Shown: positions 4,397 through 30,942 of the stretch, piece by piece | Layout: each line of letters opens with the position of its first letter | Position numbering within the stretch: position 1 is the first letter of the stretch | Assembly: GCF_900128455.1 (NCBI RefSeq) | Contig: NZ_LT635783.1 | Location: 3,718,359-3,782,358, forward strand | Direction of reading: 5' to 3' | DNA: 64,000 nucleotides | Source: Bacteroides mediterraneensis | GTDB lineage: Bacteria > Bacteroidota > Bacteroidia > Bacteroidales > Bacteroidaceae | Notes under the pieces: model-generated | What the model saw: only the letters and a program-made list of their open reading frames with translations | Database searches by the model: none | What the model was told of the DNA's origin: nothing | Made by a program: the position numbers and the translations under genes

Positions 4397-4420
4397 TTAC
4401 TCACATAAATAGATAGAATT

Positions 4421-14350: not shown

Positions 14351-16735
14351 TCAGCTAAGACTTCTAATCATATTTTCAACATGATTCATGCGAAATACAT
14401 AGTCATACCTTTCTGATAAAGGTTCAAGCTCTTTTGTCAGAGTTTCAAACGAAGGTTTACCGAATAGCACAGCCAGGCTATCTACTGCTTTTTGCAAGCG
14501 TTTACCCAATATGCGTATAGTTTCAATGTGAGAAAGTCTATTAAATAAGGTCCCATATAATATTGCATATTTCATAGAACGAGACGAAACTTTATTGAAA
14601 TTCTCATCTCTTTGTGCTGGAAGTTTCATTGTATTGCAAAACTTTACAAATTTTTCCAATGAGTCAAGACCAACGTTACTTATGCTCCTTTCCAAACTAT
14701 CATAAAACTGTTTCTGAGAAAAGTTTCTTGATGAATAGGGTATTTGGTCAAATTTATAACGAAATTTATTAAGATAACATATCTCCATTGCAGCAAACAT
14801 AGACAGAGAAAAGAAGTTTAAGTCATCTCTAGTTATAACGCCATCACCTGTAGCTTTTACCTGCTCGTATCGCTTACTTATCATCTTCTGATATTTCATT
14901 AACAAAGATGTTGATAATTCACCATAACCTTTTAACAGTTGCTTGCTGAGGAAGATATCCTCCTGTTCTTCTATTTCTCTATTATTGCTTGTTTCTGCCG
15001 AGCCTTCTTCCTCTTCATCAATGATCGCATCATCTATCGAACGAATCTTTTTTCTAATACTCTCCTCAATACATTCAATCAGTCTTGATGTACGATCTAT
15101 TTGGAAAATCCTGCTACTCTTTGCATCGTCATTGTCATATTCCGAATTGTATTTTATTTCGGGCAAAGATAAATCAGATTGCCTTTTATCTTCTGATGAA
15201 ACTTTAATCTTTGGAGAAACTTTTTCACCAGCATCATTAACTAAGTCCCACATTACATCAGATAGCATATCAGCAACCTCCATACCATCATATCCTTCAT
15301 TCTCAATACGAGAAATGAATCTATTAAGATTACGACTCATTTTCGACGGATTTGTTGTGGCTAAGAACTCAGTCCAATTGACGAACAGCTTATTAGATAT
15401 AGATTTCTTGTCTTTATCCACTAAATAACATGTATATTGAGTTTTTGCTAACTTTATATCAGTACTATATCTATTGCCTTTATCATGTTTAAGTTCACTT
15501 ACAAGAGTCTCAATTCCATTGTCGATAGACAGTAGTACTCCATCAGGAATCTCCTCATTGCTATAGACATTTAATTTACCTGATTCGTAATAAGCGGATA
15601 ATAGTCTTAATCGTCTTCCAGTTTCAGAAGGAGCTTCATTAGAATGTTTGGATCTATTAGTTGGCACATCTATTCTTTTCTTGGTTTTCAGACCAAGTGT
15701 AGATAGAAAATCTTGCTTTGTCGAATGATACAAGACTCCAAACTCTTCATTTATGCCTCTGTGAGTTATTGTTCCAAGTCCGGCTAATGTTGCATTTGCA
15801 CTGCCAACCATACAATATTCAGCATCATTAGTCTTAAAGTGCAAAACCTTTGCATGCAATTGACGTTCATATGTTTTAAAAGCTATTTCACCCCTTTTTG
15901 TTTCGCTGAAATCATAAAAATGAATACTACTATTTGGAAGCATTCCGCTTGGTGGCAAAGCACAATCTTGGTGAATCAAAACATTCACCGTTGAGTTCGG
16001 ACAAAGTTGGGATAATGTAATCAATGATTCTCCACATTCATCAAAATATGGACTGAGAAGTGTTATAGTCTGCACCTCATTTAATGGCACTAAATTTGAA
16101 ATTTGTTGTAAAATCCCAGACTGAGAATCATTATACAGTAAAGCAGCATTTAACCCTTCTTGTACCTTGCACATACTATGAGGCACAATATTGAAAGAGG
16201 AATCTAAAAATGTACAATTTTCAGGAATCTCACGAAGAATTCTATTATGATCATAGTCGTTACATTGCTTTGTAAATCGGCAGAGATACTGCCAACATTC
16301 TTCAATGAGAGGACGATGCGTCGTATCAGTCTCATCTATCATAAAACCTGTAAATGCCTCATGATTTTTTCCATGTCCTGTAACTGTTAGATTACCAGTA
16401 CCAAACACAACCAATACAGCGTCATCTCCTACAAAGAAATTAATCTTAGGATGAAAAGCTCCGACAGCACTTATAGATGTAATGGAGTACTCCTTACCAA
16501 TATGTCTCATATAAATAGGAGATACATATTCCATAGATTTATCCATTTGATTGGTATCGGCAAACACATTTATGCTACATACTTGCTTACGATGAAGCAT
16601 GTTCAATAATTGATTATCGAAATGTATCAAATCTATGGCATAAGTAGTCAATACAGCTGAATGATATTTGCCATTTTTGCCGCCGCTAGGAATATCCAAT
16701 AATATTGCATGCTCATTCTTTTCCATAATTCTCAA
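14351..16735 (-). CDS. Phospholipase-D-like (HKD) protein at the end of the hsd operon
   Basis: A 794-residue protein without signal peptide. Its N-terminal 350 residues carry two degenerate HKD-type motifs: FHPKINFFVGDD with GTGNLT near residues 95-115, and LHAKVLHFKTND with GSANATLAG near residues 290-315. This two-motif pattern is that of PLD-superfamily nucleases and phosphodiesterases. The remaining 440 residues are charged and helical and match nothing I recognise. The start overlaps the end of the upstream gene by 23 bases, implying coupled translation; an ATG nine bases inside is an alternative. A DNA-directed defence role is inference from operon context. Confidence 0.82.
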   Translation of the reverse strand: MRIMEKNEHAILLDIPSGGKNGKYHSAVLTTYAIDLIHFDNQLLNMLHRKQVCSINVFADTNQMDKSMEYVSPIYMRHIGKEYSITSISAVGAFHPKINFFVGDDAVLVVFGTGNLTVTGHGKNHEAFTGFMIDETDTTHRPLIEECWQYLCRFTKQCNDYDHNRILREIPENCTFLDSSFNIVPHSMCKVQEGLNAALLYNDSQSGILQQISNLVPLNEVQTITLLSPYFDECGESLITLSQLCPNSTVNVLIHQDCALPPSGMLPNSSIHFYDFSETKRGEIAFKTYERQLHAKVLHFKTNDAEYCMVGSANATLAGLGTITHRGINEEFGVLYHSTKQDFLSTLGLKTKKRIDVPTNRSKHSNEAPSETGRRLRLLSAYYESGKLNVYSNEEIPDGVLLSIDNGIETLVSELKHDKGNRYSTDIKLAKTQYTCYLVDKDKKSISNKLFVNWTEFLATTNPSKMSRNLNRFISRIENEGYDGMEVADMLSDVMWDLVNDAGEKVSPKIKVSSEDKRQSDLSLPEIKYNSEYDNDDAKSSRIFQIDRTSRLIECIEESIRKKIRSIDDAIIDEEEEGSAETSNNREIEEQEDIFLSKQLLKGYGELSTSLLMKYQKMISKRYEQVKATGDGVITRDDLNFFSLSMFAAMEICYLNKFRYKFDQIPYSSRNFSQKQFYDSLERSISNVGLDSLEKFVKFCNTMKLPAQRDENFNKVSSRSMKYAILYGTLFNRLSHIETIRILGKRLQKAVDSLAVLFGKPSFETLTKELEPLSERYDYVFRMNHVENMIRSLS

Positions 16736-18227
16736 TGAATTGTGATGCTATCTCAGTTAGTGTATTATCTTCATCAAGATAACCCATGTCTTGTAAAAAA
16801 TTAAATAGAGAATCAATACGTGGCGATGTTTCAACTGGATACCGCTGCTCTATTAAAACAATCCGTCCATCCTCAAGAATAAACTTTCTTAGGTCTGAAT
16901 TATTCTTTCCCATTTTAGCAATGGCGACCACAGTATGCTCCTGCATTATTTGCACTATCAGAGATTCTATAAAACCGGATATAGAGAATGACAGATAACG
17001 CTCCACATAAGATCTTAACCCTTCACTGAGTATACCTCGCTGACGTTTCAAGTCATTTTCCCCTTCAAACTCCTCTATATCTTTTGTGTTATTCTCAAAT
17101 TCAGTATAAAGTCTCAACATGAGTCTTATTGCATGTGCTGCTGCAGAAATATAATCTTGTTTACTGACGTAATCCCTTAATTCATCATAGATTATATTTA
17201 TATTATCACTCACATTTTTCCTCCATTCGTCAAGAGAGTTATAATTCATCTCTTTCTCTATAACCGACAATAAAGATTGTTTAATATCTTGAGAAAGTAG
17301 TGCTATTGGAGGATTGTGTAATTCATGAGTTTTGTAGAGTATTAAACAAAAGAGCAAGTCAATACTATAATGCAAACCTTCACATAAATAATAGAAATAC
17401 CACCCAAATGCGGCCTGTAAATTACCGTCTTCAGTTATATGCAAAAAACGATTCTTTACGAACTCCTGAATCTCTACACCATTTGAAATATCATTTAGGA
17501 GCAAATAGATTGTTTCTCTTCGCAAGGAAGAGTCCTCGTCACTTTTCGTAAGCAAATTATTTAAGAACAGCCATTCCTCAGAGCCTACAATTATGCGATG
17601 TATTGCTAAAGATTGTAAGTCTTCTATTGCTTCTTCTTTAAGACTTCCATCCAGAATACATTTAAGAAATAATTTCCGGATGTTTTCATCAATACTATTT
17701 CTGACAGCATCAGCTAACTCTTTTCCTTTGTTACGAAGATAAAATCTGCCTTCTTCAATTTTTACAAGTTCATAATAAATAAGAGAACCAAGATAGTACT
17801 GGCCAAAAGCTCCACTCTTGAATGTCCAGTACTTATCTTTAGATTCATAATCAGCACCATCTGCAATATCATAAATACCATCCTCTATTTGCTTATATCT
17901 ACCTTGTGAAACAAACAAAGCTCCAACCACAGAACCAACATTCTGTTCCTTCATAATTAGTGCCATTGCCAACTCTGCACGACGTATAAAATTATATTGA
18001 TGCAGAGATATTTGACCAGCAACTTCAAGTTTGTCATATTCACTAAGTAGCCAACAATAAAGGCTGTAATAGCGGATGTGACGGGTTAGATTGGTGAGCC
18101 CAGGTAACAATTTGCTATAGGTTGCAATTGAACTATTCTGGATTCCCAATGGGTCACGCCCACCTTTGAAGCCATCGTTCGATGCCCAAAATACATTTGT
18201 GATTTCAGATTGCTTATATTGTGCCAT
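16713..18227 (-). CDS. Unrecognised protein paired with the PLD-like protein
   Basis: About 504 residues from the ATG at 18227 (MAQYKQSE). The frame is open to a GTG at 18251, which would overlap the hsdR stop, but the ATG start 23 bases after hsdR is more natural. No signal peptide and no clear membrane segment. The N-terminus has FWASNDGFKGGRDPLGIQNS and SLYCWLLSEYDKL; the rest is mostly helical and rich in acidic residues. I recognise no domain. Tight spacing between hsdR and the PLD gene suggests it works with one of them, for example as a sensor or regulator of the PLD protein; this is inference. Confidence 0.8.
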   Translation of the reverse strand: MAQYKQSEITNVFWASNDGFKGGRDPLGIQNSSIATYSKLLPGLTNLTRHIRYYSLYCWLLSEYDKLEVAGQISLHQYNFIRRAELAMALIMKEQNVGSVVGALFVSQGRYKQIEDGIYDIADGADYESKDKYWTFKSGAFGQYYLGSLIYYELVKIEEGRFYLRNKGKELADAVRNSIDENIRKLFLKCILDGSLKEEAIEDLQSLAIHRIIVGSEEWLFLNNLLTKSDEDSSLRRETIYLLLNDISNGVEIQEFVKNRFLHITEDGNLQAAFGWYFYYLCEGLHYSIDLLFCLILYKTHELHNPPIALLSQDIKQSLLSVIEKEMNYNSLDEWRKNVSDNINIIYDELRDYVSKQDYISAAAHAIRLMLRLYTEFENNTKDIEEFEGENDLKRQRGILSEGLRSYVERYLSFSISGFIESLIVQIMQEHTVVAIAKMGKNNSDLRKFILEDGRIVLIEQRYPVETSPRIDSLFNFLQDMGYLDEDNTLTEIASQFIENYGKE

Positions 18228-18250
18228 TGTACAACAGATTGAACAAAACA

Positions 18251-21184
18251 CTAATAGTACATCTCAATATATTGGTATGCACGTTCAAATACATCATTGT
18301 CTTTTATCTGATACTTAACCCAGAGGATAGCACGTAGTTTCTTTTTGATTTCTCTGCGGGCTGTTACACTTTGGAAAGCATCATTAAATTGACGTACAAT
18401 GTTAACCACTTCATTATCTATATCATTTACAACTTGTTCAACGATAATAGGTGTGTCTTCGGTCTTTATACTTTGGAAAAGGTCTGTTAAGGCGGCACGA
18501 GCTTGAGCACGTTTATCCTGAGGTTCATCCTTTTTCTTTTCTTCTTCAAGCAAGTCTTTTGCTAATGCAAGAAGTTGTTTCAAGAAATCAATACTGCTGA
18601 TCAGGTTTTGTTCCATTCGTTCTCGGAGTTCATCCAATTTCTCTGCAAATTTCTTGAAGTTAGGATCACCTTTGTGCTCGCCCAATCTCAATCGAAGTAT
18701 TTTCTCTACTTCAACAATCTTCTTCTCACGTGCTTTTTCATCTTCAAGGACTGCATCTATCACATCGGCATCAACTACCAAATCCTCTAGTGGAGTACCA
18801 ATGTCAATAGTTTCAATGTTGCGATGTATAATCTCTATGGTCTTAGCTCCAAGCAAAGTCCAGATAAGATTACCACCACTTACAGGACGCACACTTTGAT
18901 ACACTTGAGCCAACCAAGTATAATCATTTTGGTATTCGGCCAAACAAGCATCGGGAGAAACTATCTCCCACGCTTTATTGAGACGGGCAAAGTGGCGGCC
19001 AAAGTTTGTCTTCACACCATCATCTTTCAAGCATTGTTGAGCAGCAGTAAGCCCCTCCCATCCACCAATAGTTCTATCAACGCCAGGGAAGAACTCAATA
19101 CATTGTTGCATGAATGTAGGTATAAGACTTTTGATTTCATCGATATTCTGAACAATGGTCTTAACTGTCTCTTCATCAAAAGCAAGACTCTTTGCAACAT
19201 CCTCAAATACACCAACAAAATCAACAATCAATCCACATTTCTTATTCTCATTGTAGGTACGATTGGTTCTGCAAATAGCCTGCAACAAAGTATGATTCTT
19301 CATTGGTTTGTCCAAATACATACACTGGAGTATAGGTGCGTCAAAACCTGTTAGTAGTTTGCTTGTTACGATCACAAATTTTAGCGGAGACAATGGGTCT
19401 CTGAACTGATCAAGCAACTTCTTTTCCTCATCGCGACTACGCTTATATGCCTTATATTCATCTGCTTTATCTCCAGCAGTATGCATTATAATTGTTGTTT
19501 GGTCATCTGTGCCAAGAAGAGCATCCAAAGCCTTTTTATATTTGACGCAACATTCTCTATTGTAAACAACAACCTGAGCTTTCATGCCTGTTGGTTCCAC
19601 ATACTCTCTGAAATGAGAGACAATATACTTACAAACGTCATTGATTCTTTTTTCTGCAGTAAAGAATGCATCAACACTTGTTCTTCTTACCAATTCATTC
19701 TTGTCTTCTTCGCTAATCTGGTCGGTAAGTTCGTCAAACTCCTTTTGCAATTTAGCATCGTCCAAGTGCATCTCGACTGGAACGGTCTTGAAATTAAGTT
19801 CAAGAGTTGCCCCATCTGCTACTGAATTTTGGAATGTATATTTTGATATGTATCCATATTTATCCTCCTCGGCACCAAAACATGCAAATGTATTATGGTC
19901 ATTACGGTTAATAGGTGTACCAGTTAATCCAAAGAAGAATGCATTTGGCAGTGCTGTGCGCATCTTTTTACCGAGGTCTCCTTCTTGTGTTCTATGAGCT
20001 TCGTCCATCAAGAGGATGATATTATCACGTTCATCAATTACCTCACCATCATTCAAATCACCAAACTTAAAGATGGTGGTTATCAAGATCTTTCTTTGAT
20101 GGATCTTTTCCTCCAGTTCTTGTTTTGATGATATACTATCAATGTTAGGTATCTCTGCACGAGTGAAATCACCAGTAATCTGGTCTTCCAAATCAATTCT
20201 ATCGTCCACAATCACTACTGTTGGCGCTTTTAGCACTTCCTGACGACGAAGTTTTTGAGCCGCAAATACCATCAACCACGACTTACCAGAACCTTGGAAA
20301 TGCCAAATCAAACCTTTACGAGGGCCAGAGCCATTTATATATGTTGACAGAACACGTTGAACAATAGCTTCGCCACCCCAATATTGTTGGTAACGACATA
20401 CAATTTTAATTTTTCTGCCTCCTGAGGTTCCTGTGAAAACAGAATAGAAACGATATATATCCAATAGTCTTTCAGGAGTCATCAATGATACATAGTTATG
20501 CTCAACATCCTCCAATGTACCATGCTTACGTTCCTCATCGGCAAACCATGGGCCCCATTTGTCAATAGGGCATCCAATACCAGCATATTGAAGTTCTCTA
20601 CCTTCACTTGCAAAGGTTAGAATATTCGGAACAAACATTTCAGGGATACTCTTCTGGTAATGCATAATATCAGTAGCACCATCAGCCCATGTTACAGATG
20701 CCTTAACAGGAGTCTTTGCTTCACCGATAACCATAGGTATACCATTGATGACATATACAAGGTCTAAACGCTTGCCTCCCTCCTTACTCTTTCTCGGATA
20801 CTCCCACTGATTAGTTACTATGCAACGATTCTTATATTCATCATCCTTGCCTGCAAAGAAACGAATGTTGATATTATCGCCATTATCACCAAATGGGTAT
20901 GAGTTTTCTTCAAATAGTAACTTGCGGAACTTATCATTAGCTGTGATTAGTTCATCAGAAGCTCCGCCACTTGTAATACAAGCTCGAAGCTTATATATAA
21001 CCTGTTCTGCTTGTTCAGGAGTAATAGGATTCAATGCCAGCAGTGCCTCCATGAGCCATTCTACAACAAGAACTTCATCAGGAAGTCTCGGAACAAACTG
21101 CGGTTCCACATATATCCAACCGCATTGTCCTGCTGCATTAATGAGCATTTGCTCAACTGTATTTTCTTCGTTAAAGTATGCCAT
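18251..21184 (-). CDS. hsdR: Type I restriction endonuclease subunit R
   Basis: HsdR drives ATP-dependent DNA translocation and cleavage in the R2M2S complex. The 977-residue protein has the N-terminal nuclease domain with RLDLVYVINGIPMVIGEAK around residues 140-158 (D...E-x-K), Walker A WHFQGSGKSW near residue 300, the DEAH-box LLMDEAHRTQ near 395, helicase motif III-like FGLTGTPI, and motif VI-like LLQAICRTNRTY near 640. All expected motifs are intact and the length is normal. It follows hsdS2 by 20 bases. The C-terminal helical domain should bind the methylase core. Confidence 0.97.
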   Translation of the reverse strand: MAYFNEENTVEQMLINAAGQCGWIYVEPQFVPRLPDEVLVVEWLMEALLALNPITPEQAEQVIYKLRACITSGGASDELITANDKFRKLLFEENSYPFGDNGDNINIRFFAGKDDEYKNRCIVTNQWEYPRKSKEGGKRLDLVYVINGIPMVIGEAKTPVKASVTWADGATDIMHYQKSIPEMFVPNILTFASEGRELQYAGIGCPIDKWGPWFADEERKHGTLEDVEHNYVSLMTPERLLDIYRFYSVFTGTSGGRKIKIVCRYQQYWGGEAIVQRVLSTYINGSGPRKGLIWHFQGSGKSWLMVFAAQKLRRQEVLKAPTVVIVDDRIDLEDQITGDFTRAEIPNIDSISSKQELEEKIHQRKILITTIFKFGDLNDGEVIDERDNIILLMDEAHRTQEGDLGKKMRTALPNAFFFGLTGTPINRNDHNTFACFGAEEDKYGYISKYTFQNSVADGATLELNFKTVPVEMHLDDAKLQKEFDELTDQISEEDKNELVRRTSVDAFFTAEKRINDVCKYIVSHFREYVEPTGMKAQVVVYNRECCVKYKKALDALLGTDDQTTIIMHTAGDKADEYKAYKRSRDEEKKLLDQFRDPLSPLKFVIVTSKLLTGFDAPILQCMYLDKPMKNHTLLQAICRTNRTYNENKKCGLIVDFVGVFEDVAKSLAFDEETVKTIVQNIDEIKSLIPTFMQQCIEFFPGVDRTIGGWEGLTAAQQCLKDDGVKTNFGRHFARLNKAWEIVSPDACLAEYQNDYTWLAQVYQSVRPVSGGNLIWTLLGAKTIEIIHRNIETIDIGTPLEDLVVDADVIDAVLEDEKAREKKIVEVEKILRLRLGEHKGDPNFKKFAEKLDELRERMEQNLISSIDFLKQLLALAKDLLEEEKKKDEPQDKRAQARAALTDLFQSIKTEDTPIIVEQVVNDIDNEVVNIVRQFNDAFQSVTARREIKKKLRAILWVKYQIKDNDVFERAYQYIEMYY

Positions 21185-21204: not shown

Positions 21205-22296
21205 CTAATTGTAATATTCTGATTTATCGACCTGTTCTGCTATGAAAACGAATTCAAGTTGTTTGTCCATTGGCGGTAAGATACAATCAAAGTTTCTTAA
21301 CTCAGTGAGCGGCATTCGTGGCATTTTAGTACCTCCAGCTATATCATTTGCATAATTAACGAACTGATTACCCCGCAACAGATGACTCAAAAATACTTTA
21401 TGCAATTTACTAGGCTCTGGACGTAATGGAACCAGTTCTGTCGTTGCCATTCCAGGCTCATCTGGTATCACAACCTTGTTTAAATAAGGCCTTAATTTTG
21501 AGAATAGTACATTCCCTTCATCAAAGGATTGAACAGATAAAGCATTCTCAACATCTTCATAGACCTTCTCTATTATCCTACCAGTATTTGATTCTATCAT
21601 ATCAAGATTCAATAGCCAGATTTTGCCAGATAGTTGCTCTTTAGAAGGCATTTCCGGGGCGACATCTTTAATCTTAGCAGTCTTCCAACCTTTTGTATTC
21701 GTAACAGGATTACCAAACATCTCGATAAATTGCGATTTGCAACCAACAAATTCTGATTTATCAGCCTGATTGTAAATGCTGGCAAACTCTTCTTGAGCCT
21801 CAATTGGAGGAATAATGATCTTCGCATTTCCAATAGACTCCTTGTTAAGTGTCTGGCCTTTTACTGCTTGCTTTGCACCTAGTAACCAGTTCTTGTTTGC
21901 AATAAGAAAATGCAGGAAGTCGATATTGAATTTCTTCTCATCAAAACCAGCAAAAGCCATTATTGCCTCGTTGGTATATAGATCTTCTGAGGTAATAGCA
22001 GTTCTTCCTATAGAGAGCTTAAAACTCATTATAATCGTACCTTTGGGCACTGCTTTGATTCCTGAATCAGCTATTGCATAGTCTGTAATGTATTCGCTAG
22101 TATCTCCTGTATAACGCGTGTATGAAGACATGTCGGATATAGAAACCCATTTGTGGGTTCCATTATCCCAACACTCAGGATTATTGCGTGCTGGAGTCTT
22201 ACCCATCGATAGCTTAAATTCATCTTTTACTAATGATTCTGTCCAACCCTTGTCATTAGTATTCTGATTTCCAAACATCTCGATAAATTGCGACAT
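21205..22296 (-). CDS. hsdS: HsdS-like specificity subunit built of two position-2-type recognition modules
   Basis: About 363 residues from the ATG at 22296. Unlike the other HsdS, it opens directly with SQFIEMFGN, the segment that normally separates the two target recognition domains. It then has one recognition domain, a junction ADKSEFVGCKSQFIEMFGN, a second recognition domain, and ends at VDKSEYYN without the usual C-terminal helix. So it is two copies of a SQFIEMF-TRD-DKSE module. It follows the recombinase stop by one base. It may be an active specificity subunit or a store of modules for exchange with the hsdS at 24841-25947; the frame is intact. Confidence 0.9.
   Translation of the reverse strand: MSQFIEMFGNQNTNDKGWTESLVKDEFKLSMGKTPARNNPECWDNGTHKWVSISDMSSYTRYTGDTSEYITDYAIADSGIKAVPKGTIIMSFKLSIGRTAITSEDLYTNEAIMAFAGFDEKKFNIDFLHFLIANKNWLLGAKQAVKGQTLNKESIGNAKIIIPPIEAQEEFASIYNQADKSEFVGCKSQFIEMFGNPVTNTKGWKTAKIKDVAPEMPSKEQLSGKIWLLNLDMIESNTGRIIEKVYEDVENALSVQSFDEGNVLFSKLRPYLNKVVIPDEPGMATTELVPLRPEPSKLHKVFLSHLLRGNQFVNYANDIAGGTKMPRMPLTELRNFDCILPPMDKQLEFVFIAEQVDKSEYYN
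21713..21738. repeat. hsdS module-border repeat, copy A
   Basis: AACATCTCGATAAATTGCGA plus TTT (21716-21738) is identical to 25397-25419, and the 23 bases 21713-21735 are identical to 22271-22293. On the minus strand all copies encode SQFIEMF. It marks the border between the two modules of the second hsdS. Confidence 0.9.
22271..22293. repeat. hsdS module-border repeat, copy B
   Basis: Exact 23-base match to 21713-21735 in the same orientation, at the first codons of the second hsdS and just outside the recombinase stop codon. Confidence 0.9.
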
Positions 22297-22297
22297 A

Positions 22298-23284
22298 CTA
22301 ACCAATGAATTTATGATGAGACAATTTCACATTATTCTGATTCACCATTGCATATTGCAATGTCGTATCGAGACTCTGATGACCGAGTAGGTGCTGGACT
22401 TGCTCAATAGGCATGCCCTTATCTATTGCCATTGTTGCCAATGTTCTACGGAATTTATGTGGATGCACTTTTGGAATATTCAAATCTTTCCCCATCTGGC
22501 GCAGTCTAATCTCCACTCCGCTAATCTGCAATCTATCATAAGGAGCCAGGAGTGAGACAAACAACGCTTCATTGTTGTCAGTACGGCTGTTTATGTATTT
22601 CTGCAAATGAATCTTTGTACGAGCATCGAAATATACCTTACGCTGCTTATCACCTTTGCCGGTAACAATACACTCCCTGTTATGGTAGTCTATATCTGAG
22701 CGATTGAGCTTAACCAATTCTCCAACACGCATTCCTGTTGATGCCAATAGATCTATCAATGCCAAATCACGCGGATTTGAGCAATGGTCCCGCATCAATT
22801 CAAGAGATTCATCAGTATATGTTTCCTTTACGGTTTTACCCACTTTTACTTTATGGATTCTTCGTACAGGACTCTTTACTATATAGTTTTCTTCTTCTAA
22901 CCAAGAAAAGAAACTGGATAGTATGCGTCGAATATTATCTACCGTTACCTTGCTCGCGCCACTCTCGCTTTGATATGTATTTAAATAATGCCGTAAATCA
23001 TCAGTAGTTATGTGGATAACCTCTTTACCCAACTTAATCAATGCATTATTTATAGTACTGCGATAATAGGCGATTGAATTAGGAGAACATCCTTCAACTT
23101 TCTTGGCTGAGATAAAATTCTCTACCAAAATCTGATTATTACTTTCTGCATTGACAGAATCTTTTTCAGTCACGACAATGTTACGGAAGGTGTAATCAAG
23201 CACCTTACGCAACTGGGCCAACTGCTCATTATTCAATGAACCGAGCATAGCCTGTTCTATTTCGTTAATCAAGTTCTTAACCAT
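22298..23284 (-). CDS. XerC/D-like tyrosine recombinase inside the hsd operon
   Basis: A 328-residue site-specific recombinase with an N-terminal SAM-like core-binding domain (about residues 45-140) and a C-terminal catalytic domain. Catalytic residues are visible: Arg in TGMRVGELVKL, His-x-x-Arg in HPHKFRRTLATMA, His in HLLGHQSLDTT and the nucleophile Tyr in LQYAMV. It is complete. Its place between AlbA_2 and hsdS genes matches recombinases known to rearrange hsdS loci in Bacteroides and other bacteria. Here the obvious target repeats are all in direct orientation, which differs from classical inversion systems. Confidence 0.93.
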   Translation of the reverse strand: MVKNLINEIEQAMLGSLNNEQLAQLRKVLDYTFRNIVVTEKDSVNAESNNQILVENFISAKKVEGCSPNSIAYYRSTINNALIKLGKEVIHITTDDLRHYLNTYQSESGASKVTVDNIRRILSSFFSWLEEENYIVKSPVRRIHKVKVGKTVKETYTDESLELMRDHCSNPRDLALIDLLASTGMRVGELVKLNRSDIDYHNRECIVTGKGDKQRKVYFDARTKIHLQKYINSRTDNNEALFVSLLAPYDRLQISGVEIRLRQMGKDLNIPKVHPHKFRRTLATMAIDKGMPIEQVQHLLGHQSLDTTLQYAMVNQNNVKLSHHKFIG

Positions 23285-23353
23285 AATCTTACTATATTAT
23301 AAAGGTTCGTCAATTAACGCGCGACTAATTATTCATGCACTACAATAATATGA

Positions 23354-23392
23354 ACTTAGTCACTCATGAGTGACCAAGTAAAGTGACTAAGT
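23354..23392. repeat. Nested palindromes at the end of the AlbA_2 gene
   Basis: A perfect 16-bp palindrome GTCACTCATGAGTGAC (23359-23374) lies within an 11-bp inverted repeat ACTTAGTCACT (23354-23364) / AGTGACTAAGT (23382-23392). More TTAGTCAC-type words occur inside the gene at 23575-23640. It could be a hairpin, a regulator site or a recombinase site. Confidence 0.65.
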
Positions 23393-24829
23393 CAATGCTC
23401 GTTTGTATTTTTGGCTCCGACTATTAGGTTTCTCGGGAATAGTCATTACCAAGAATCCTCCCTCTATAAGTGGGTCAATATAGCGATGCTTTACATTATA
23501 TCTGTGTTTAAGACCAAGATGCTCCATGATTTCAGCCATACTTCGAGGAGTAGAACAAAAATCAATTATATCATTAAGTGTGTCACTTAACTTAGTCACT
23601 GACTTAGTCACATTTTCCTCATCGGTGACCAAGTTAAGTGATAAAGAAGGCCTCACTATAACCTCAAAAGCTGTAATCTTATCCACATTGAACACTGGTT
23701 CGGGATTTCCATTCTCTTGCAATAAGTTCTTTACACGCTGAATTCCACGATTGAACATGTTAACGTACTTCAATCCACGCATAGCCTCTGCAACAATTGG
23801 ATTACGATAATCATTTACCGTTGGGAAGTTCTCAGGACGAGCCTCACCATACAATCCTCCAGCATTAAGAATCTCAATACGATCCTCATATTGATAAAGT
23901 CGAATTGGCATATTGGACTGGTAATCCCTATGCATACATGCATTCATCAACAACTCTCTAAGAGCCAAGTCAGGATAATTCAACACATTCTTCTCACGCA
24001 GCATGCTAATAGGCATAGGGCGAGAAGTCACCACAGCATCCCTAACAAAGTTTTCCAATTGCGGTAGCATTTTACTAAGACTTCCTTTAATCTGTCGTTC
24101 ATTAACGATTTCACTACCACGGTCTTTACCTGCAAAATGAACGTATTGTACATAGCACCCATGCATATAATACTGAGGGTCTTTACCAAAAAGAATCATT
24201 GCAGCATTTGTAGGACATTCATGTGTAAGATCATACAAATGAATTGCCGCCAACTGTTCCTTGATATTACGGCTATCGCTAGCCAATACTTCGTGGTCAA
24301 TTATCTGAGGAAGATATTCTCTTTTGATGAACTCCGTATCAATATCTTTTATGGTTGCGCCAAAACAAGGAGTGGCATCAAATGTTGCCATATATGAAGT
24401 TCTACGTTCAAACAAAATTCGTTCTTCCGCTTCACTGGCAATATCCCTGCGAGGACCAATACGAACAAATGTCCTACCGCGATATCGTACAGGTGGAACC
24501 AACGAAGGTGAAACTTCTGCAACAAGCAAATCTCCATCCTCATATTCAAATCTTTCCACCGACATAATAGGAAGAGGCAATATATTACCATTTGAACGTA
24601 TGGCTGAAATCTTTTTTAGTAAATCATCATCAACTTTCAACCCCGATAAAGTTCCATTATCATACGCACCAAGAATCAGATACCCATTCTTCTTGGAATT
24701 AGGTAAATCGTTTGAGAAAGCACATATTGCTTCTTGAAACTTATCCATATCTCCGGTAGATGTGGTACGCTCTATTCTATATGTCTCAGTGCTCTTCAAC
24801 AGCTCACGTACTTCTTCTTTTGATATCAT
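23387..24829 (-). CDS. AlbA_2 / GHKL-type ATP-binding protein of restriction operons
   Basis: A 480-residue protein of the group often named RecG-like or Schlafen-AlbA_2 protein. The AlbA_2 domain spans about residues 10-130 (ERTTSTGDMDKFQEAICAFSN and RTFVRIGPRRDIASEAEE). A GHKL-like ATP-binding segment follows (LRELLMNACMHRDYQ, then RIEILNAGGLYG), and a winged-helix-like region ends the protein. Such proteins are common beside hsd genes, where a role in RNA or DNA sensing or regulation is suspected but not shown. Near the C-terminus a VTKSVTKLSD repeat is encoded by repeated TTAGTCAC words. It lies 11 bases after hsdS1. Confidence 0.88.
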   Translation of the reverse strand: MISKEEVRELLKSTETYRIERTTSTGDMDKFQEAICAFSNDLPNSKKNGYLILGAYDNGTLSGLKVDDDLLKKISAIRSNGNILPLPIMSVERFEYEDGDLLVAEVSPSLVPPVRYRGRTFVRIGPRRDIASEAEERILFERRTSYMATFDATPCFGATIKDIDTEFIKREYLPQIIDHEVLASDSRNIKEQLAAIHLYDLTHECPTNAAMILFGKDPQYYMHGCYVQYVHFAGKDRGSEIVNERQIKGSLSKMLPQLENFVRDAVVTSRPMPISMLREKNVLNYPDLALRELLMNACMHRDYQSNMPIRLYQYEDRIEILNAGGLYGEARPENFPTVNDYRNPIVAEAMRGLKYVNMFNRGIQRVKNLLQENGNPEPVFNVDKITAFEVIVRPSLSLNLVTDEENVTKSVTKLSDTLNDIIDFCSTPRSMAEIMEHLGLKHRYNVKHRYIDPLIEGGFLVMTIPEKPNSRSQKYKRALT

Positions 24830-24840
24830 AGTGATATATA

Positions 24841-25947
24841 TTAGTTGTTTATCAAACTCTTTATTACTTGGTCTATTGCGTCAATCGATTTGCGTAATTC
24901 AAATTCTGATTTATCGGCCTGTTGAGCAATGCTTACAAACTTCATCTGTTCATTGTAAGGGGGCAATTCTATTTTCAATTCAGAGAATGAAGTTTGATTC
25001 AATGATTTGAATGATGTGCCAGTCCCCATTTTCTTAATGTTGTCTTCTTGATACATTAAAGCATGATAAAGAAACTCTACGTTACATACGTTATCGTGGC
25101 ACTTTGCTCTACATATAGACTGATTGGTTGCACATTCTATCTTATTGATTGCCATTACTCCGATACTACCTCGACATACATACATCAAGGTATCTACTGG
25201 GATAATCTTGCATGTAGCATATCCGGCTTCTGTGACCTTCTCGCAAGTGTCATATACATACTTATTTTTCATGTCCTCTGCAGATACCCATGGCTTATCT
25301 CCATTCCAATATTCAAGATTTGCCTTAGAAGGCGTACCTCCAGTGGATACATCAGCAAACGATTTTAGCATTCTCAAAGGATACCCCTTCTCTTTGAACA
25401 TCTCGATAAATTGCGATTTCACCATTTCTCGAGTAGCATTAAGAAGCTTCTTATATGATTGTTTTAGGCGATAAGCTGACATCACTTTTTGGGCAATTTC
25501 TAATTGCTGCTTAATTGGAGGCAACTCGAATTCGTAATCAGCAAGAGTACTCCAGTTTAGAAAGTAATTAACACCACCACTTTTATTTTCTTCACAATAA
25601 TTCCAAAAATCATCACTTTGCATAATTATTGCTAAATATTCTTGTGTGAGAATACTTTCATCTTTAGTTTCTATTACAAAGGTCTTTTCTGAACAGATTC
25701 CATCAAAATCAGCAATACTACACTTCTTTAAATGAGGATTTCGTGTAACAAATAGAATTTGCCCTGCAGTAAAGCCGCAATAGAACATTGGTCCAATTGT
25801 TGAACCTTTTATTACACCCTTCTTTGTAACATATAACTCACATGAATCTATATGTTCACCACCTACATAATAGATTTTCTCAGTATTGAATCTATCTTCT
25901 CTTGTATATGCTCGGTGTGCAACCTCAGAAAACTTGACTATGCTCAT
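24841..25947 (-). CDS. hsdS: Type I restriction specificity subunit S
   Basis: HsdS determines the bipartite DNA target. Starting at the ATG at 25947, which overlaps the hsdM2 stop as ATGA, the protein has about 368 residues; the frame extends upstream to 26004 but this would overlap hsdM2 by 61 bases. TRD1 occupies about residues 1-150, the central conserved helix ends with KSQFIEMF near 177-184, TRD2 follows, and the distal conserved region is QQADKSEFELRKSIDAIDQVIKSL. The TRD2 module has the same border sequences as both modules of the second hsdS. Confidence 0.93.
   Translation of the reverse strand: MSIVKFSEVAHRAYTREDRFNTEKIYYVGGEHIDSCELYVTKKGVIKGSTIGPMFYCGFTAGQILFVTRNPHLKKCSIADFDGICSEKTFVIETKDESILTQEYLAIIMQSDDFWNYCEENKSGGVNYFLNWSTLADYEFELPPIKQQLEIAQKVMSAYRLKQSYKKLLNATREMVKSQFIEMFKEKGYPLRMLKSFADVSTGGTPSKANLEYWNGDKPWVSAEDMKNKYVYDTCEKVTEAGYATCKIIPVDTLMYVCRGSIGVMAINKIECATNQSICRAKCHDNVCNVEFLYHALMYQEDNIKKMGTGTSFKSLNQTSFSELKIELPPYNEQMKFVSIAQQADKSEFELRKSIDAIDQVIKSLINN
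25397..25419. repeat. hsdS module-border repeat, copy C
   Basis: Exact 23-base match to 21716-21738, same orientation, at the centre of the first hsdS between TRD1 and TRD2. Confidence 0.9.
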
Positions 25948-27464
25948 AATAAATCTATTAAATTGGTAAATGACTCGTGTAAAGACTCTGAGTTTGACTT
26001 CCAATTTTCTAAAAGTTCAGAAATATCTTCAATATCTTTTGGATCGTTGGATTTTACATAGAATTTTGGTGAAATGCTATACTTGTTATCAGGGATTTCA
26101 TTATTGTTAATAATCTTTGAACGTCCGTCAATATTGGTATATCGGGTATAAATACTCGTTATTATTGAAATATGCTCATTGGTTAAATAACTTTCAGTAT
26201 TTTTCCGTTCCACTAAATCGGTAGCCTTTATTAAAAGAATTTTATTTTTCCTATCAGTTGGTTTATTTGATCGACAAATAAGAATACAGGCCTCCATTGG
26301 TGAATTAAAAAATAAATTTTTCCCAATACTAATAACGGCATCAATAAGATCGTTCTGAATGAGCTTTTGACGTATATCTTTCTCTATAAGTCTATTAAGA
26401 ACACCATGAGGCAATAGAATAGCACATCTTCCATGATCATTCATAGATGATAAAATATGCTGTATGAAGGCATAGTCTGCTTTAGACTGAGGCGGTGTTC
26501 CTAAGAAATTGCGTCCCCATTTGTCGTTTATAAAAGCCTCACGATCCCATGTCTTTATAGAGTATGGCGGATTTGCTAATACGATATCAAACTTACGCAA
26601 TTTGCTTCCATCGACAAAGGCGGGGTATGCTAAGGTATCTTCTCTGACAATAGAAAAGTCTTCAACGCCATTTAGATAAAGATTCATTCGAGCAATAGCA
26701 CTGGTAAGTGCATTAATCTCTTGCCCAAAAACCTTTACTCCTTGCCATGGTTCACCCTTTTTGCGAAGAAAGTCCAAACATTTTACAAGCATACCACCCG
26801 AACCACAAGTAGGGTCATAGATGCTTTCGCCCGGACGAGGTTGAAGTATCTCTGCCATCAAATCCACAACGGTACGGTTGGTGTAAAACTCCTGTGCCGT
26901 ATTACCAGCATCATCGGCAAACTTGCCCACAAGATACTCATATGCCTGTCCCATCTCATCTGCTGGACACGCTTTAAGCGACAAATTGTAACGTGAGAAA
27001 TCTTCTATCAAAGAGGTGATAATGTGGTCGGGCATCTTGGCTTTATTGGTCCACCCATCTTTAGGGCCAAAGATACCTTCCAGGCCTCCGATAACACGTC
27101 CATCGGCATGTTCGCCAGGGTTGGCTTGTTCAATAGCAATAAAGGCTTCGACCAAACGCTGGCCAACATTCTCAGTACACTCACGTACATCACGCCAATG
27201 GGCACCATCGGGAATACGAATTACTAATTCTTGAGCTTGAGCATTGGCATACTCTATACCGCCTTCGCAAACATAGCCTTCAAACTGCTCATCGTATACG
27301 TCAGAAATTCGTTTGAAGAATAGCAAAGGGAAAATATATTCTTTGTAACCAGCAGCATCAATCTGACCACGAAGGCGAGTGGCTGCTCCCCAAAGGAACG
27401 ATTTCAAGTCTTCCAATGAAATAGGCTCATCGGGATTTCTATAATATTTTACAGGTTGTTCCAT
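25944..27464 (-). CDS. hsdM: Type I restriction methylase subunit M (second copy)
   Basis: A 506-residue N6-adenine methyltransferase subunit. The N-terminal HsdM domain has GYKEYIFPLLFFKRISDVYDEQ; the catalytic domain has the SAM motif DPTCGSGGMLVKC near residue 216 and the catalytic motif LANPPYSIKTW near residue 296. Both are intact. It is clearly different in sequence from the adjacent hsdM1, so it is not a recent duplication. It starts four bases after hsdM1 ends and is coupled to hsdS1 by ATGA. Confidence 0.95.
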   Translation of the reverse strand: MEQPVKYYRNPDEPISLEDLKSFLWGAATRLRGQIDAAGYKEYIFPLLFFKRISDVYDEQFEGYVCEGGIEYANAQAQELVIRIPDGAHWRDVRECTENVGQRLVEAFIAIEQANPGEHADGRVIGGLEGIFGPKDGWTNKAKMPDHIITSLIEDFSRYNLSLKACPADEMGQAYEYLVGKFADDAGNTAQEFYTNRTVVDLMAEILQPRPGESIYDPTCGSGGMLVKCLDFLRKKGEPWQGVKVFGQEINALTSAIARMNLYLNGVEDFSIVREDTLAYPAFVDGSKLRKFDIVLANPPYSIKTWDREAFINDKWGRNFLGTPPQSKADYAFIQHILSSMNDHGRCAILLPHGVLNRLIEKDIRQKLIQNDLIDAVISIGKNLFFNSPMEACILICRSNKPTDRKNKILLIKATDLVERKNTESYLTNEHISIITSIYTRYTNIDGRSKIINNNEIPDNKYSISPKFYVKSNDPKDIEDISELLENWKSNSESLHESFTNLIDLL

Positions 27465-27468
27465 AGGG

Positions 27469-28995
27469 TTATAAGTTTATCAGTTTTCTAAATTCTTCTT
27501 CAAATCTCTTTACCTCCTCGTATGCCGCCTTGAACTCTGCAAGCACTTCTGCATATGGACGGATTTCCTCTTTGTGATATTCCACGTATTTATTAGGAGA
27601 AAGGTCATAATCCTTAGCCGCAATATCATCAAGAGTCACCACTTTAGAAAAGTCTTCTACATCCTCGTAATTGGTGTAGAGTTCGTATAAACGATTTACA
27701 TCTTCTGGAGAAAGTATATTCTGTGCACGCTTTACGGTGAGAATCTTTGTGCCATCAATCATCAGTACTCGCGCACTATGTGCAGCCGGTTTCAAACGTC
27801 TTAATATCAAGAAACAGGGAGAAAGAGGTGTGCCATAGAAGAGTTTATCGCCTAATGTCACAACAGCTTCAACCAAATCGCTCTTTACCAATTTCTCGCG
27901 AATGCGGCCTTCTTCATTTCCACGAAATAATACACCTTGAGGCATAACAACCGCCATACGACCATTGCCTGATGCCATACTTTTCACCATGTGCTGAATC
28001 CAAGCATAATCTCCACACGAATCACTGGGTGTTCCCCAAACATTACGACCATATTTATCTGAAGACCATTCTACTGAACCCCATTTCTCAAGTGAGAAGG
28101 GCGGGTTAGCTATAACGCAATCGAACTTGGCAATCTCTCCATTCTGCAAAATCTTGGGTGAACGAAGTGTGTCGCCTTGCATAATATTAAAGTCACTGGC
28201 GCCATGTAAGAACAAGTTCATCTTTGCAATGGCCGAGTTGACAACGTTCTTCTCCTGTCCGAATATGCTTCCACAGCAAAGACTTGAGTGATTCATGTGC
28301 TGTACCGCCTCAATCAGCATACCGCCACTACCACATGCTGGGTCATACACAGTCTCACCTGGTTTCGGATCGAGAATGCGTACAAGCAAGCTTACGACCG
28401 AACGAGGCGTATAGAACTCTCCAGCTTGAGCCTTACTGTCATCCGCAAATTTCTTCAGCAATATCTCATATGCATCACCCATCAAATCAGCTGGGTAATC
28501 ATTGTTGCCCAATCTACGGGTGGATAGATGCTCTATCAAATCACGAATCTTACCATCAGAAAGGTTTTTCTTATCGGTCCACTTCTGTGCGCTGAACATC
28601 GACAACACGCCGTATAGTGTATCAGGATTTGCTAACTCTATACCTCGCATCGCACCAACAATTGCAGCACCAAGATTCTCGGAGCGTTCGCGAATATCAC
28701 TCCAATGACAACCATCTGGAATTACAAAACGATGTTGTTCAGGCAAGGATGCATACTCCTCATCGCCACCACTTTCTTCAAGCGCAGTTTGAGTCTCTTC
28801 GTCATATACATCAGATATACGCTTAAAATAGAGGATTGGTGTTATATAATCTTTGAAGTTATCTTGACTCACAGGACCACGCAATATGTTGCATGCCTCA
28901 AACAGAAAGTTGTACAGATTCTGCACACCTTCCATTTTAAGGGTTTTCTCGTCTTTGGGAACCAGAGATTCTTCTTTATTTTTCTTTTTTGCCAT
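27469..28995 (-). CDS. hsdM: Type I restriction methylase subunit M (first copy)
   Basis: A 508-residue HsdM. After a lysine-rich start come the HsdM N-terminal domain (NFKDYITPILYFKRISDVYDEE), the SAM-binding DPACGSGGMLIEAV near residue 216 and the catalytic ANPPFSLEKW near residue 297. It is the first enzyme gene of the operon, 30 bases after the XRE regulator. Two intact and divergent M subunits in one type I operon is unusual; they could form a mixed M1M2S core or each serve one S subunit. Confidence 0.95.
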   Translation of the reverse strand: MAKKKNKEESLVPKDEKTLKMEGVQNLYNFLFEACNILRGPVSQDNFKDYITPILYFKRISDVYDEETQTALEESGGDEEYASLPEQHRFVIPDGCHWSDIRERSENLGAAIVGAMRGIELANPDTLYGVLSMFSAQKWTDKKNLSDGKIRDLIEHLSTRRLGNNDYPADLMGDAYEILLKKFADDSKAQAGEFYTPRSVVSLLVRILDPKPGETVYDPACGSGGMLIEAVQHMNHSSLCCGSIFGQEKNVVNSAIAKMNLFLHGASDFNIMQGDTLRSPKILQNGEIAKFDCVIANPPFSLEKWGSVEWSSDKYGRNVWGTPSDSCGDYAWIQHMVKSMASGNGRMAVVMPQGVLFRGNEEGRIREKLVKSDLVEAVVTLGDKLFYGTPLSPCFLILRRLKPAAHSARVLMIDGTKILTVKRAQNILSPEDVNRLYELYTNYEDVEDFSKVVTLDDIAAKDYDLSPNKYVEYHKEEIRPYAEVLAEFKAAYEEVKRFEEEFRKLINL

Positions 28996-29385: not shown

Positions 29386-30942
29386 CTATCGGGCGCGTCC
29401 CTTATTCTGCTTCACACTGTATTTAGCCATAATGTATTTGACAGCATGTGAGAAGCATCTTCTTTGGAATGCAAAATCAGGTTCGTCAGGTCTGCGACCA
29501 TCCCAACGTAAGTCTGATTCATTTCCTCCGCCTCCACCCCCTGATGGAACTACATAATCTCCACCTATAAGAGCTGTTGCTACAGCACATAATTCATCAC
29601 GTAAAGATGGTATCGAAAGGTAGTCAAAAGTCTTCAATGCCAAATTAGACCAGTAATTCATACATTCAGTAAGAGTCTTGTTTTCTGCTTTCAACGTATG
29701 GACTTCTTTCATATCCACCAAAATGTTCTGGCGAACAGCTTCAACTTGATTAGCAGCTTCATTTCTATAAAGTTCTTCCAATTTACGCCCCATAGCGGTA
29801 AATTGCTTCTCGATAATTGTATTTTGGCGTTCCAGCCACTTATCGGTTCCAAACATTGGCGGTTTTTCTGTAATCTGTGGCGCATTAAACTCAATCTTGT
29901 AATTCTTGAACGGTCTATTCACAGAATGAATGTTTTGGATATCTTTCAGTAACGAGTCTAACTCCTGCTGCTTTATCATCAACTTGGTTTCCTTATCATC
30001 GAGTCTTTCTTGGCAATCTTGTATCAAATCCTCAATGCACGCTTTCTTGTTTTGATATTCAGCCAATACAACACGTCCTGCAGCCAAATCTTTCTCCAAG
30101 ATTTTTAATTCATCGGAAAACATTTTCATTTCAGCCTCGATATTATCTTTCATGGTTTGCAATCCTCTGATGGCCTTTTCCATCTTCTTCTGCTCCTTTG
30201 CGAGTTTACGGATATAATCTCGCTTATTCAGATGCTGGATATTGCGACCTTCTACGCTGTCCCCCCTCTCCAAACCGTATTTGCTACCAACTTCTTCATA
30301 GAGTGAGGTATGCATTTCCTTGAGTATTGAACCATACTCATATTTATTCTTTCCGAATTTTGCAGACCACATCACACATTCACGGCCACTTTTAGGACGT
30401 ACCCCAACAGGAACAATAAGTGCATGAATATGTGGTGACGTTTCATCAAGATGAACCTGAAAGCCGATGATATTCTCTTTCCCATACCTACGGCAACACC
30501 AATTATATACATCCAAAGCCCATTGCTCCACCTCTTTGCATCTATGTATATGGCTATTGTCCGAACCTTTATCCAATTTTAGATCCTGAGTGCCAAATGC
30601 CATTCCCAATGTACGCTCTCGATTGCCACCAAAGATGAGACGAGCACAACAATTGGGCTGAATCTTACTATCCGCTTTGAATGGACGCCAACCAAGTTCA
30701 TTTAGCCGTTCTTGCAAGCGAACATCAAGTCTTTTATCCTGATAGCCCAAAGAGTGAATCTTACCATCGGGGCCAATCTCAAAATTAAGCCTCATTCTGG
30801 TTTTGTCGTAGTTATTAATAGAATCGTTGTTCTTAGAATCAATCATCTTATCATCCCATCTTCTTTCGTTTTCATTGGCTTCTGCTGCGCCAAAAGATTT
30901 GCATGCATCTAAATGCATGGCTTGTTTAATACTTTCATTCAT
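29386..30942 (-). CDS. MobV-family relaxase (Mob/Pre)
   Basis: A 518-residue plasmid-mobilization relaxase that should nick at the element's oriT and pilot the strand. Family marks are the N-terminal NNYDKTRMRLNFE and the metal-binding motif HLDETSPHIHALIVPVG around residue 165, with the His-rich HxDExxPHxH pattern complete. Residues about 270-350 are coiled coil. The C-terminal part is low in known motifs. It identifies Island 1 as mobilizable rather than self-transmissible. The likely oriT is in the gap just upstream of its start. Confidence 0.9.
   Translation of the reverse strand: MNESIKQAMHLDACKSFGAAEANENERRWDDKMIDSKNNDSINNYDKTRMRLNFEIGPDGKIHSLGYQDKRLDVRLQERLNELGWRPFKADSKIQPNCCARLIFGGNRERTLGMAFGTQDLKLDKGSDNSHIHRCKEVEQWALDVYNWCCRRYGKENIIGFQVHLDETSPHIHALIVPVGVRPKSGRECVMWSAKFGKNKYEYGSILKEMHTSLYEEVGSKYGLERGDSVEGRNIQHLNKRDYIRKLAKEQKKMEKAIRGLQTMKDNIEAEMKMFSDELKILEKDLAAGRVVLAEYQNKKACIEDLIQDCQERLDDKETKLMIKQQELDSLLKDIQNIHSVNRPFKNYKIEFNAPQITEKPPMFGTDKWLERQNTIIEKQFTAMGRKLEELYRNEAANQVEAVRQNILVDMKEVHTLKAENKTLTECMNYWSNLALKTFDYLSIPSLRDELCAVATALIGGDYVVPSGGGGGGNESDLRWDGRRPDEPDFAFQRRCFSHAVKYIMAKYSVKQNKGRAR

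Follow-up and report, generated by a model that had tools for sequence, protein, structure and literature searches.

Within a 64,000-nucleotide window of the Bacteroides mediterraneensis genome (the whole stretch of DNA that was analysed; assembly GCF_900128455.1, contig NZ_LT635783.1, positions 3,718,359 to 3,782,358), we analysed a complete type I restriction-modification (RM) locus. All its genes are on the minus strand, in the order hsdM, hsdM, hsdS1, an AlbA-type gene, a tyrosine recombinase gene, hsdS2 and hsdR. We consider it likely that this is a specificity-switching locus of the translocating sort, similar to the pneumococcal tvr locus, in which the second target recognition domain (TRD) of hsdS1 would be swapped among three cassettes. 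The switch is probably real and active, judging from its repeats and its relatives. The more surprising part of the finding is the broad spread of the co-directed layout among loci that encode related recombinases.

Two kinds of direct repeats delimit three cassettes

The hsdS1 gene (24841..25947, with its start codon, ATG, at 25947; Methylase_S matches) comprises a fixed TRD1, a first copy of a midpoint repeat (M1), the TRD2 cassette, a first copy of a tail repeat (T1) and a sequence coding for a full-length C-terminal helix, which we call the tail. The hsdS2 gene (21205..22296), an open reading frame of 363 residues with matches to Specificity_I models, consists of two C-type cassettes in tandem, TRDa and TRDb. 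Its ATG is at 22296, one base past the stop codon of the recombinase gene (22298..23284).

The M repeat is present in the middle of hsdS1, where it codes for KSQFIEMF (M1, 25397..25419), just after the recombinase gene, beginning one base past its stop codon and carrying the ATG of hsdS2 (M2, 22271..22296), and between TRDa and TRDb in hsdS2 (M3, 21713..21738). Its coding-strand core, TCGCAATTTATCGAGATGTT, is 20 bases long and has exactly three zero-mismatch copies in the 4,075,696-base genome, all on the same strand. There is no exact inverted copy of this core in the genome. The T repeat, GATAAATCAGAAT, codes for DKSE and is 13-14 bp long. It has three direct copies, each closing a C-type TRD: T1 (24903..24916, coding for DKSEF) at the end of the TRD2 cassette, T2 (21750..21763) at the end of TRDa and T3 (21216..21229) at the end of TRDb. 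Each of the three C-terminal cassettes spans M to T. M reads K/MSQFIEMF, T reads DKSE and the codon phase is equal in all three cassettes; therefore, any swap would stay in frame. There are thus two kinds of repeats with three copies each and a constant orientation within each kind, which is the pattern of tvr-type loci.

The longest direct repeat is 23 bases, compared with at most 12 bases in a null made of eight 100-base stretches of the recombinase gene matched against the window. By the same measure, the longest inverted match to the region of the recombinase stop codon is 10 bases. M and T have the 8-base motif ATTTATCG in common, but inverted relative to each other, and GCAAATCG is common, in equal orientation, to a stretch at M3 and to the part of the tail that directly follows T1 on its 3' side. 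At E <= 1e-5, a search of the genome yielded no second copy of the cassette region.

Most of this had been anticipated in a first-pass annotation made from the DNA alone. Its three SQFIEMF-TRD-DKSE modules and its complete recombinase between the hsdS genes are present as described, and the two 23-base identities that it gave are exact (21716-21738 = 25397-25419; 21713-21735 = 22271-22293). The TTCTGATTTATC ends that it noticed at the cassette borders correspond to the three T copies; their role as a second border, which is needed for a clean swap, had been overlooked. It had further stated that every copy is direct. This applies among the M copies and among the T copies, but given the inverted ATTTATCG shared by M and T, it is valid only within each kind of repeat. 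The inverted copy that, by that annotation, would have betrayed an ordinary inversion system is absent from the whole genome, as far as exact M cores are concerned.

Cassettes occupy different slots in related loci

A scan of 84,980 species genomes with the window's recombinase yielded 149 related places, and the best 80 of those 149 were kept (loci are designated L followed by a number). Because the scan was seeded with the recombinase of the window and the best matches were kept, the set is biased towards close relatives. According to record titles, they come from Bacteroidota, Fibrobacter, many Bacillota, a Synergistaceae, a few archaea and others, and several are metagenome bins. Plasmid and viral loci of the same recombinase family were counted apart from these 80 genome loci.

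We compared the cassettes of ten loci (the window and L019-L027) with a threshold of at least 42% identity over 110 residues; the resulting pairs depend on one another, L023 contributes no first TRD owing to a frame break at M, and the D2 cassette of L019 is only an 18-residue stub. First TRDs match first TRDs only, and all 13 matching pairs are in the same slot, so that no moved first TRD was detected among the ten loci. For C-type cassettes, 8 of the 13 matching pairs are in different slots, and 5 are in the same one. In the window's clade, the D1, D2 and U-1 positions exchange as C-type.

Two junctions were read in detail, and both fall in M and T. The TRD2 cassette of the window, upstream of the recombinase gene, corresponds to the last downstream cassette of Phocaeicola oris, with 90.6% protein and 85.1% DNA identity, the latter exceeding the 75.6% DNA identity of the recombinase genes. 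The end of TRD1 with M, and the hsdS1 tail past T, have not moved between these two loci. Similarly, the upstream cassette of L019 is 98.8% identical in DNA to the first downstream cassette of Segatella baroniae (L021). The matching stretch opens at M on its left side and extends into T on its right side, in which the E or G codon proper to each locus is retained.

Slot changes are also found in the Bacillota. The recombinase genes of L050 and Flintibacter muris L054 are 98.3% identical in DNA, and their cassettes, all on one strand, are arranged as 2+2 and 3+1, respectively. A cassette 99.6% identical between them is in the other position, and the C-type cassettes directly upstream of the recombinase gene are unlike each other.

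In L023, hsdS1 is split into two frames at M (4209-5304), which could be an off state, decay or an assembly error.

M is constrained, and both borders vary in concert

In the relatives, M is found at the same three positions, i.e. mid-hsdS1, directly 3' of the recombinase stop codon and between two downstream cassettes. Eight of the ten loci scanned, including the window, have all three copies; L020 and L027 have one copy each with the same pattern. Over nine loci, M has synonymous differences in 8 of 166 comparisons. The corresponding counts for two other parts of the same gene are 154 of 252 for the C-terminal tail and 56 of 119 for the central helix (the latter over eight loci, L023 being dropped because its frame breaks there). 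By this comparison, M is constrained at the DNA level and frozen at synonymous positions.

Where M does vary, it does so in all copies of a locus: GAA replaces GAG in the three copies of L025, and CGG replaces CAA in those of L026. At its fourth residue, T has E, G or K, and always the same one inside a given locus (nine loci, 23 of 23 pairs), which none of 200,000 shuffles reached, although this statistic ignores the kinship of the loci. Therefore, both borders evolve in concert, as recombining sites do.

The co-directed layout is widespread in the recombinase family

We classed the loci with a TRD profile built in five rounds and trained on the same loci to which it was applied. A locus was classed if it had at least two TRD halves, which was the case for 67 of the 80 genome loci; 14 loci were left unclassed (13 genome loci and the plasmid locus L115). 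In 64 of the 67 classed genome loci, every TRD is on the strand of the recombinase gene, the exceptions being L040, L090 and L093. Exact repeats of at least 17 bases among the TRD regions of these 67 loci are direct only in 60 and of both kinds in 2; in no locus are they inverted only. None of 81 loci (the 80 and the window) has a degenerate M core on the opposite strand; a control with reversed sequence gave five matches in total on both strands.

The picture is different for plasmids. Opposite-strand cassettes are present in 9 of the 11 classed plasmid loci, all of Lactobacillales (Lactococcus, Ligilactobacillus, Latilactobacillus and Enterococcus), and in one of five viral contigs, L100, which has inverted repeats only. 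In a tree of 92 recombinases, the opposite-strand type requires five changes, at least four of them by well-supported branches. The window's recombinase belongs to a supported clade whose 11 members come from Bacteroidota and Fibrobacter; 9 are direct and 2 unclassed. The TRD profile detected no opposite-strand TRD in the window or in L019-L027.

By these counts, the co-directed layout is the rule in this recombinase family, which is new relative to known systems. We propose tentatively that excision and reintegration via direct repeats, rather than inversion, might be the main route by which this family re-aims type I enzymes across bacteria and some archaea. The loci of Bacteroidota and Fibrobacter would then be one-anchor cassette stores in which M serves as the left border and T as a distinct right one, and the excised circle would also carry a replaceable guard or defence-like gene.

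At E <= 1e-90, the recombinase is present in 4 of 395 Bacteroidota genomes, counting that of the window. In a set of 60 genomes, also counting that of the window, four others have a close full-length match, with 87% identity in one case and 61-65% in three, and genome G053 has an 83-residue piece at 70% identity. As for mobile elements, the cassettes of the viral loci L099 and L101 are those of L032 and L039 at 100% identity. The Lactococcus plasmid loci L104-L107 have identical recombinase DNA, and their TRD halves are inverted and translocated between records at 100% DNA identity.

Proposed mechanism and alternative explanations

In the mechanism that we propose, the cassettes TRD2, TRDa and TRDb would be the units of exchange, with M as their left border and T as their right one, and TRD1 would be fixed. 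The recombinase would cut out a circle through one type of repeat, e.g. T1 x T2 or T1 x T3, and this circle would carry the hsdS1 tail, the AlbA-type gene, the recombinase gene and one or two cassettes. It would go back in through the other type of repeat (M x M). The net result would be the exchange of the TRD behind TRD1 with the tails unmoved, giving TRD1+TRD2, TRD1+TRDa or TRD1+TRDb, i.e. three specificities with TRD1 in common. As T x T excision followed by M x M reinsertion would leave the tails in place, it matches the two junctions read in relatives. That the recombinase acts on M and T, that a circle forms, that switching takes place within a population, that hsdS2 is silent and that there are three specificities are all inferences. 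The first-pass annotation had favoured exchange of modules over inversion, and the slot changes of relatives, their single strand and the two junctions located in the repeats agree with this. A scheme with a single border is insufficient as the whole explanation: M x M recombination alone would yield in-frame fusions of three TRDs, and the unmoved tails of the P. oris and L019/L021 comparisons need a right border at T.

The hsdS2 gene is probably a silent store, because the long central and C-terminal helices are supplied by the upstream slot only. Conversely, hsdS1 and hsdS2 might be two separate working specificity genes sharing HsdM and HsdR, with no switch and with repeats that are remnants of duplications of protein-coding sequence. 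The open frame of hsdS2, its two TRDs, its Specificity_I matches and the coupling of its ATG to the recombinase stop codon are in line with this. However, hsdS2 has an inter-TRD linker 10 residues shorter than that of hsdS1 and ends without the long tail helix. Its AlphaFold prediction is poor (pLDDT 68.8, pTM 0.49) when that of hsdS1 is good, weak evidence given that the hsdS2 alignment is also worse; the hsdS2 model was of too low quality for use and was set aside. Two working genes would also leave the slot changes and the concerted repeats unexplained, and we find this explanation very improbable. Still more improbable is that an ordinary inverting hsdS locus was caught in one orientation. 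The recombinase family does include loci with opposite-strand cassettes, as described above for plasmid, viral and genome loci (9 of 11, 1 of 5 and 3 of 67), and the Lactococcus loci L104 and L105 have swapped inverted cassettes at 100% identity. Nevertheless, the genome has no exact inverted M, neither the window nor L019-L027 has an opposite-strand TRD, and the 10-base inverted match at the recombinase stop codon is within the null (<=12 bases).

TRDs might also have moved without the recombinase, with the repeats providing short stretches of homology that RecA-type recombination, gene conversion or interspecies transfer could use in rare evolutionary events. All the evidence from Bacteroidota is indeed between species, identical cassette copies inside one locus resemble conversion or duplication, and TRD movement within hsdS is described in a published report on Helicobacter pylori (PMC3077401). 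This explanation appears unlikely to us in view of the conservation of M 3' of the recombinase stop codon across the clade, its freeze at synonymous positions, in which it differs from other conserved helices encoded in the same gene, and the full-length recombinase kept beside the sites in relatives. Moreover, homologies of 13-23 bp are short for RecA.

Several observations weigh against translocation by the linked recombinase, or against its generality. The slot changes were observed between species or higher taxa, so they could be slow and result from homologous recombination and transfer. Near-identical TRD copies (99.3-100% DNA identity) are present within one locus, flanking a copy of the recombinase gene, in L032 (identical to L099, and with two recombinase copies), L038, L051, L057 and L072. 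Such pairs are not expected from a purely conservative swap on one chromosome and suggest the insertion of a circle into a sister copy, or conversion. T is short (13-14 bp) and has ATTTATCG inverted with respect to M, and we infer rather than observe that it is a substrate of the recombinase. In the wider family, 5 of the 67 classed loci have no exact 17-base repeat among their TRD regions, and only 43 of the 81 loci have a degenerate M core within 80 bases 3' of the recombinase gene (30 of these 43 also have an upstream copy on the same strand). Finally, the linked recombinase need not be the sole agent, because excision in the pneumococcal tvr locus is described as partly independent of TvrR (PMC6265443) and inversion of SpnIII as continuing without CreX (PMC6620402).

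Comparison with known systems

The closest known system is the pneumococcal tvr locus (SpnIV), for which Kwun et al. 2018 describe recombinase-mediated excision and reintegration via two types of direct repeats (PMC6265443); the statement in the first-pass annotation that known hsdS phase-variation loci use inverted repeats was thus incorrect. In that account, the first TRD, next to hsdM, is fixed, a Phd-Doc pair and the recombinase gene are in the middle, 2+2 and 3+1 arrangements occur, N- and C-type TRDs are mobile, and the two kinds of repeats, the ~18 bp MPR and the ~70 bp TER, have a common core of ~11 bp in the same orientation (PMC6265443). The window shares with tvr as thus described the order hsdM, hsdS, accessory gene, tyrosine recombinase, hsdS and hsdR on one strand, corresponding to the '2+2' layout, as well as the two kinds of direct repeats and the fixed TRD next to hsdM. 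The other TRDs change sides of the recombinase gene in both cases, here as seen between species only, and both 2+2 and 3+1 arrangements are found in the wider family of the window's recombinase. This likeness is one of layout, repeats and cassette slots. In contrast with the published description of tvr, the window has one fixed N-terminal TRD and three C-type cassettes, and only C-type cassettes were found to move in the clade. M is 20-23 bp and T 13-14 bp, much shorter than TER, and an AlbA/HATPase/Fic-like_C gene replaces the Phd-Doc pair. The combination of one fixed TRD with three C-type cassettes is new relative to tvr.

As in the inverting loci (SpnIII/ivr, CreX/PsrA), hsdS TRDs would be shuffled beside a tyrosine recombinase gene. 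Unlike SpnIII/ivr, the window has no inverted repeats. It also has none of the opposite-strand cassettes that some members of its recombinase family have, chiefly on Lactobacillales plasmids. In integron arrays, a recombinase is found beside cassettes that are each opened by a recombination site, with one expressed position. The same features are recognizable here, but each cassette is half a gene, joined in frame to a half that is fixed, and the recombinase scores far under the cut-offs of the integron-integrase models TIGR02249 and NF011946. The domain movement of H. pylori is not known to involve a dedicated or linked recombinase, or dedicated silent cassettes. What the window has in common with that system, as it is reported, is the shift of TRDs between positions within hsdS (PMC3077401).

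According to its main text, a REBASE survey of switching type I systems searched for inverted repeats only (PMC7394358), and the terms 'direct repeat' and 'tvr' occur zero times in that text. Direct-repeat loci would therefore have been missed. Among the matches listed in a search of the open-access literature by title and start of abstract, none describes such a locus outside pneumococcus. If the relatives do switch, many bacteria change the specificity of restriction and methylation by a route uncounted so far. A good part of these relatives are from gut and rumen, as judged from record titles, and the matter is relevant to phage defence, gene exchange and genetic access to these bacteria.

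Products of the locus, accessory slot and neighbourhood

HsdM, HsdS and HsdR domains are encoded together in one cluster, and HsdS1 has the HsdS fold, as expected of a type I RM enzyme. Both methylase subunits, encoded at 27469..28995 (N6_Mtase, 316 bits; PADLOC MTase_I) and 25944..27464 (N6_Mtase, 278 bits), have HsdM_N domains. HsdR (18251..21184) matches HSDR_N, SWI2_SNF2 and T1R_D3-like models and is called REase_I by PADLOC. The best AlphaFold model of HsdS1 has a pLDDT of 91 (78-82 for the remaining four) and long helices at residues 145-187 and 331-367; as modelled, HsdS1 has the canonical build of a specificity subunit, including the pair of long spacer helices. Foldseek gave as its closest structure chain C of 7vru (7vru_C, E 1.5e-27), from PacII M1M2S, a name that implies two M subunits, as at the window locus with its two hsdM genes.

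The recombinase has a SAM-like N-terminal domain followed by a Phage_integrase domain. It is XerA/XerD-like, matches Xer models and scores above the cut-off of the XerA-type model NF040815. None of the five solved structures that it resembles (best E 9.1e-22) is hsdS-linked; three have the name XerA, XerC-like or XerD, a fourth is an XerD-FtsK fusion and the fifth a chain labelled RaiA.

A near-perfect 26-base palindrome (23354..23379) lies directly upstream of the recombinase gene and is a candidate operator or attenuator hairpin. Palindromic TGACTAAGT-rich repeats extend over 23354-23397 and 23583-23646, i.e. directly before the recombinase gene and at the end of the AlbA-type gene, and might likewise form an operator or attenuator. 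A 101-base stretch with the repeats of the AlbA-type gene end folds at z -3.83. A 71-base stretch around the palindrome folds at z -2.55, but the signal is gone in a 136-base stretch (z -0.05), and the case for an RNA hairpin ahead of the recombinase gene is weak and was not retained.

The AlbA-type gene (23387..24829; SLFN_AlbA_2, HATPase_c_4 and Fic-like_C) occupies a slot between the upstream hsdS and the recombinase gene whose content differs by locus (L023 5304-6758, L051 8338-9396, L056 8926-9513, L057 8852-9892, L072 8893-9378, L103 9015-9902 and L113 7192-7953). Of the ten slot proteins scanned, six have a Pfam family and four do not. The types found are AlbA/HATPase (in the window, and in L023 by BLAST at 24%), AAA_21 (AbiEii-like), RelA_SpoT, YhcG/DUF1016 nuclease, DUF3990, Trypsin_2 and Fic. 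The slot thus looks like a position for replaceable cargo, or for a guard, on the excised circle.

Two co-directed genes downstream of hsdR are possibly further defence genes. One (14351-16735) codes for a 794-residue PLD-like protein with PLDc_2 just under the cut-off and PADLOC hits to PDC-M27B/ZacB/DrmC; the other (16713-18251) codes for a 512-residue protein devoid of family matches. The genome has three other hsdS loci (G000:C1 1480436-1481482, 3100399-3101390 and 3312041-3313177), one of them with internal stop codons. On the other side of the RM locus, genes for a MobV relaxase (29386-30942) and a PG0870-related protein (31108-32157) adjoin hsdM, and the RM locus may be carried on a mobilizable element.

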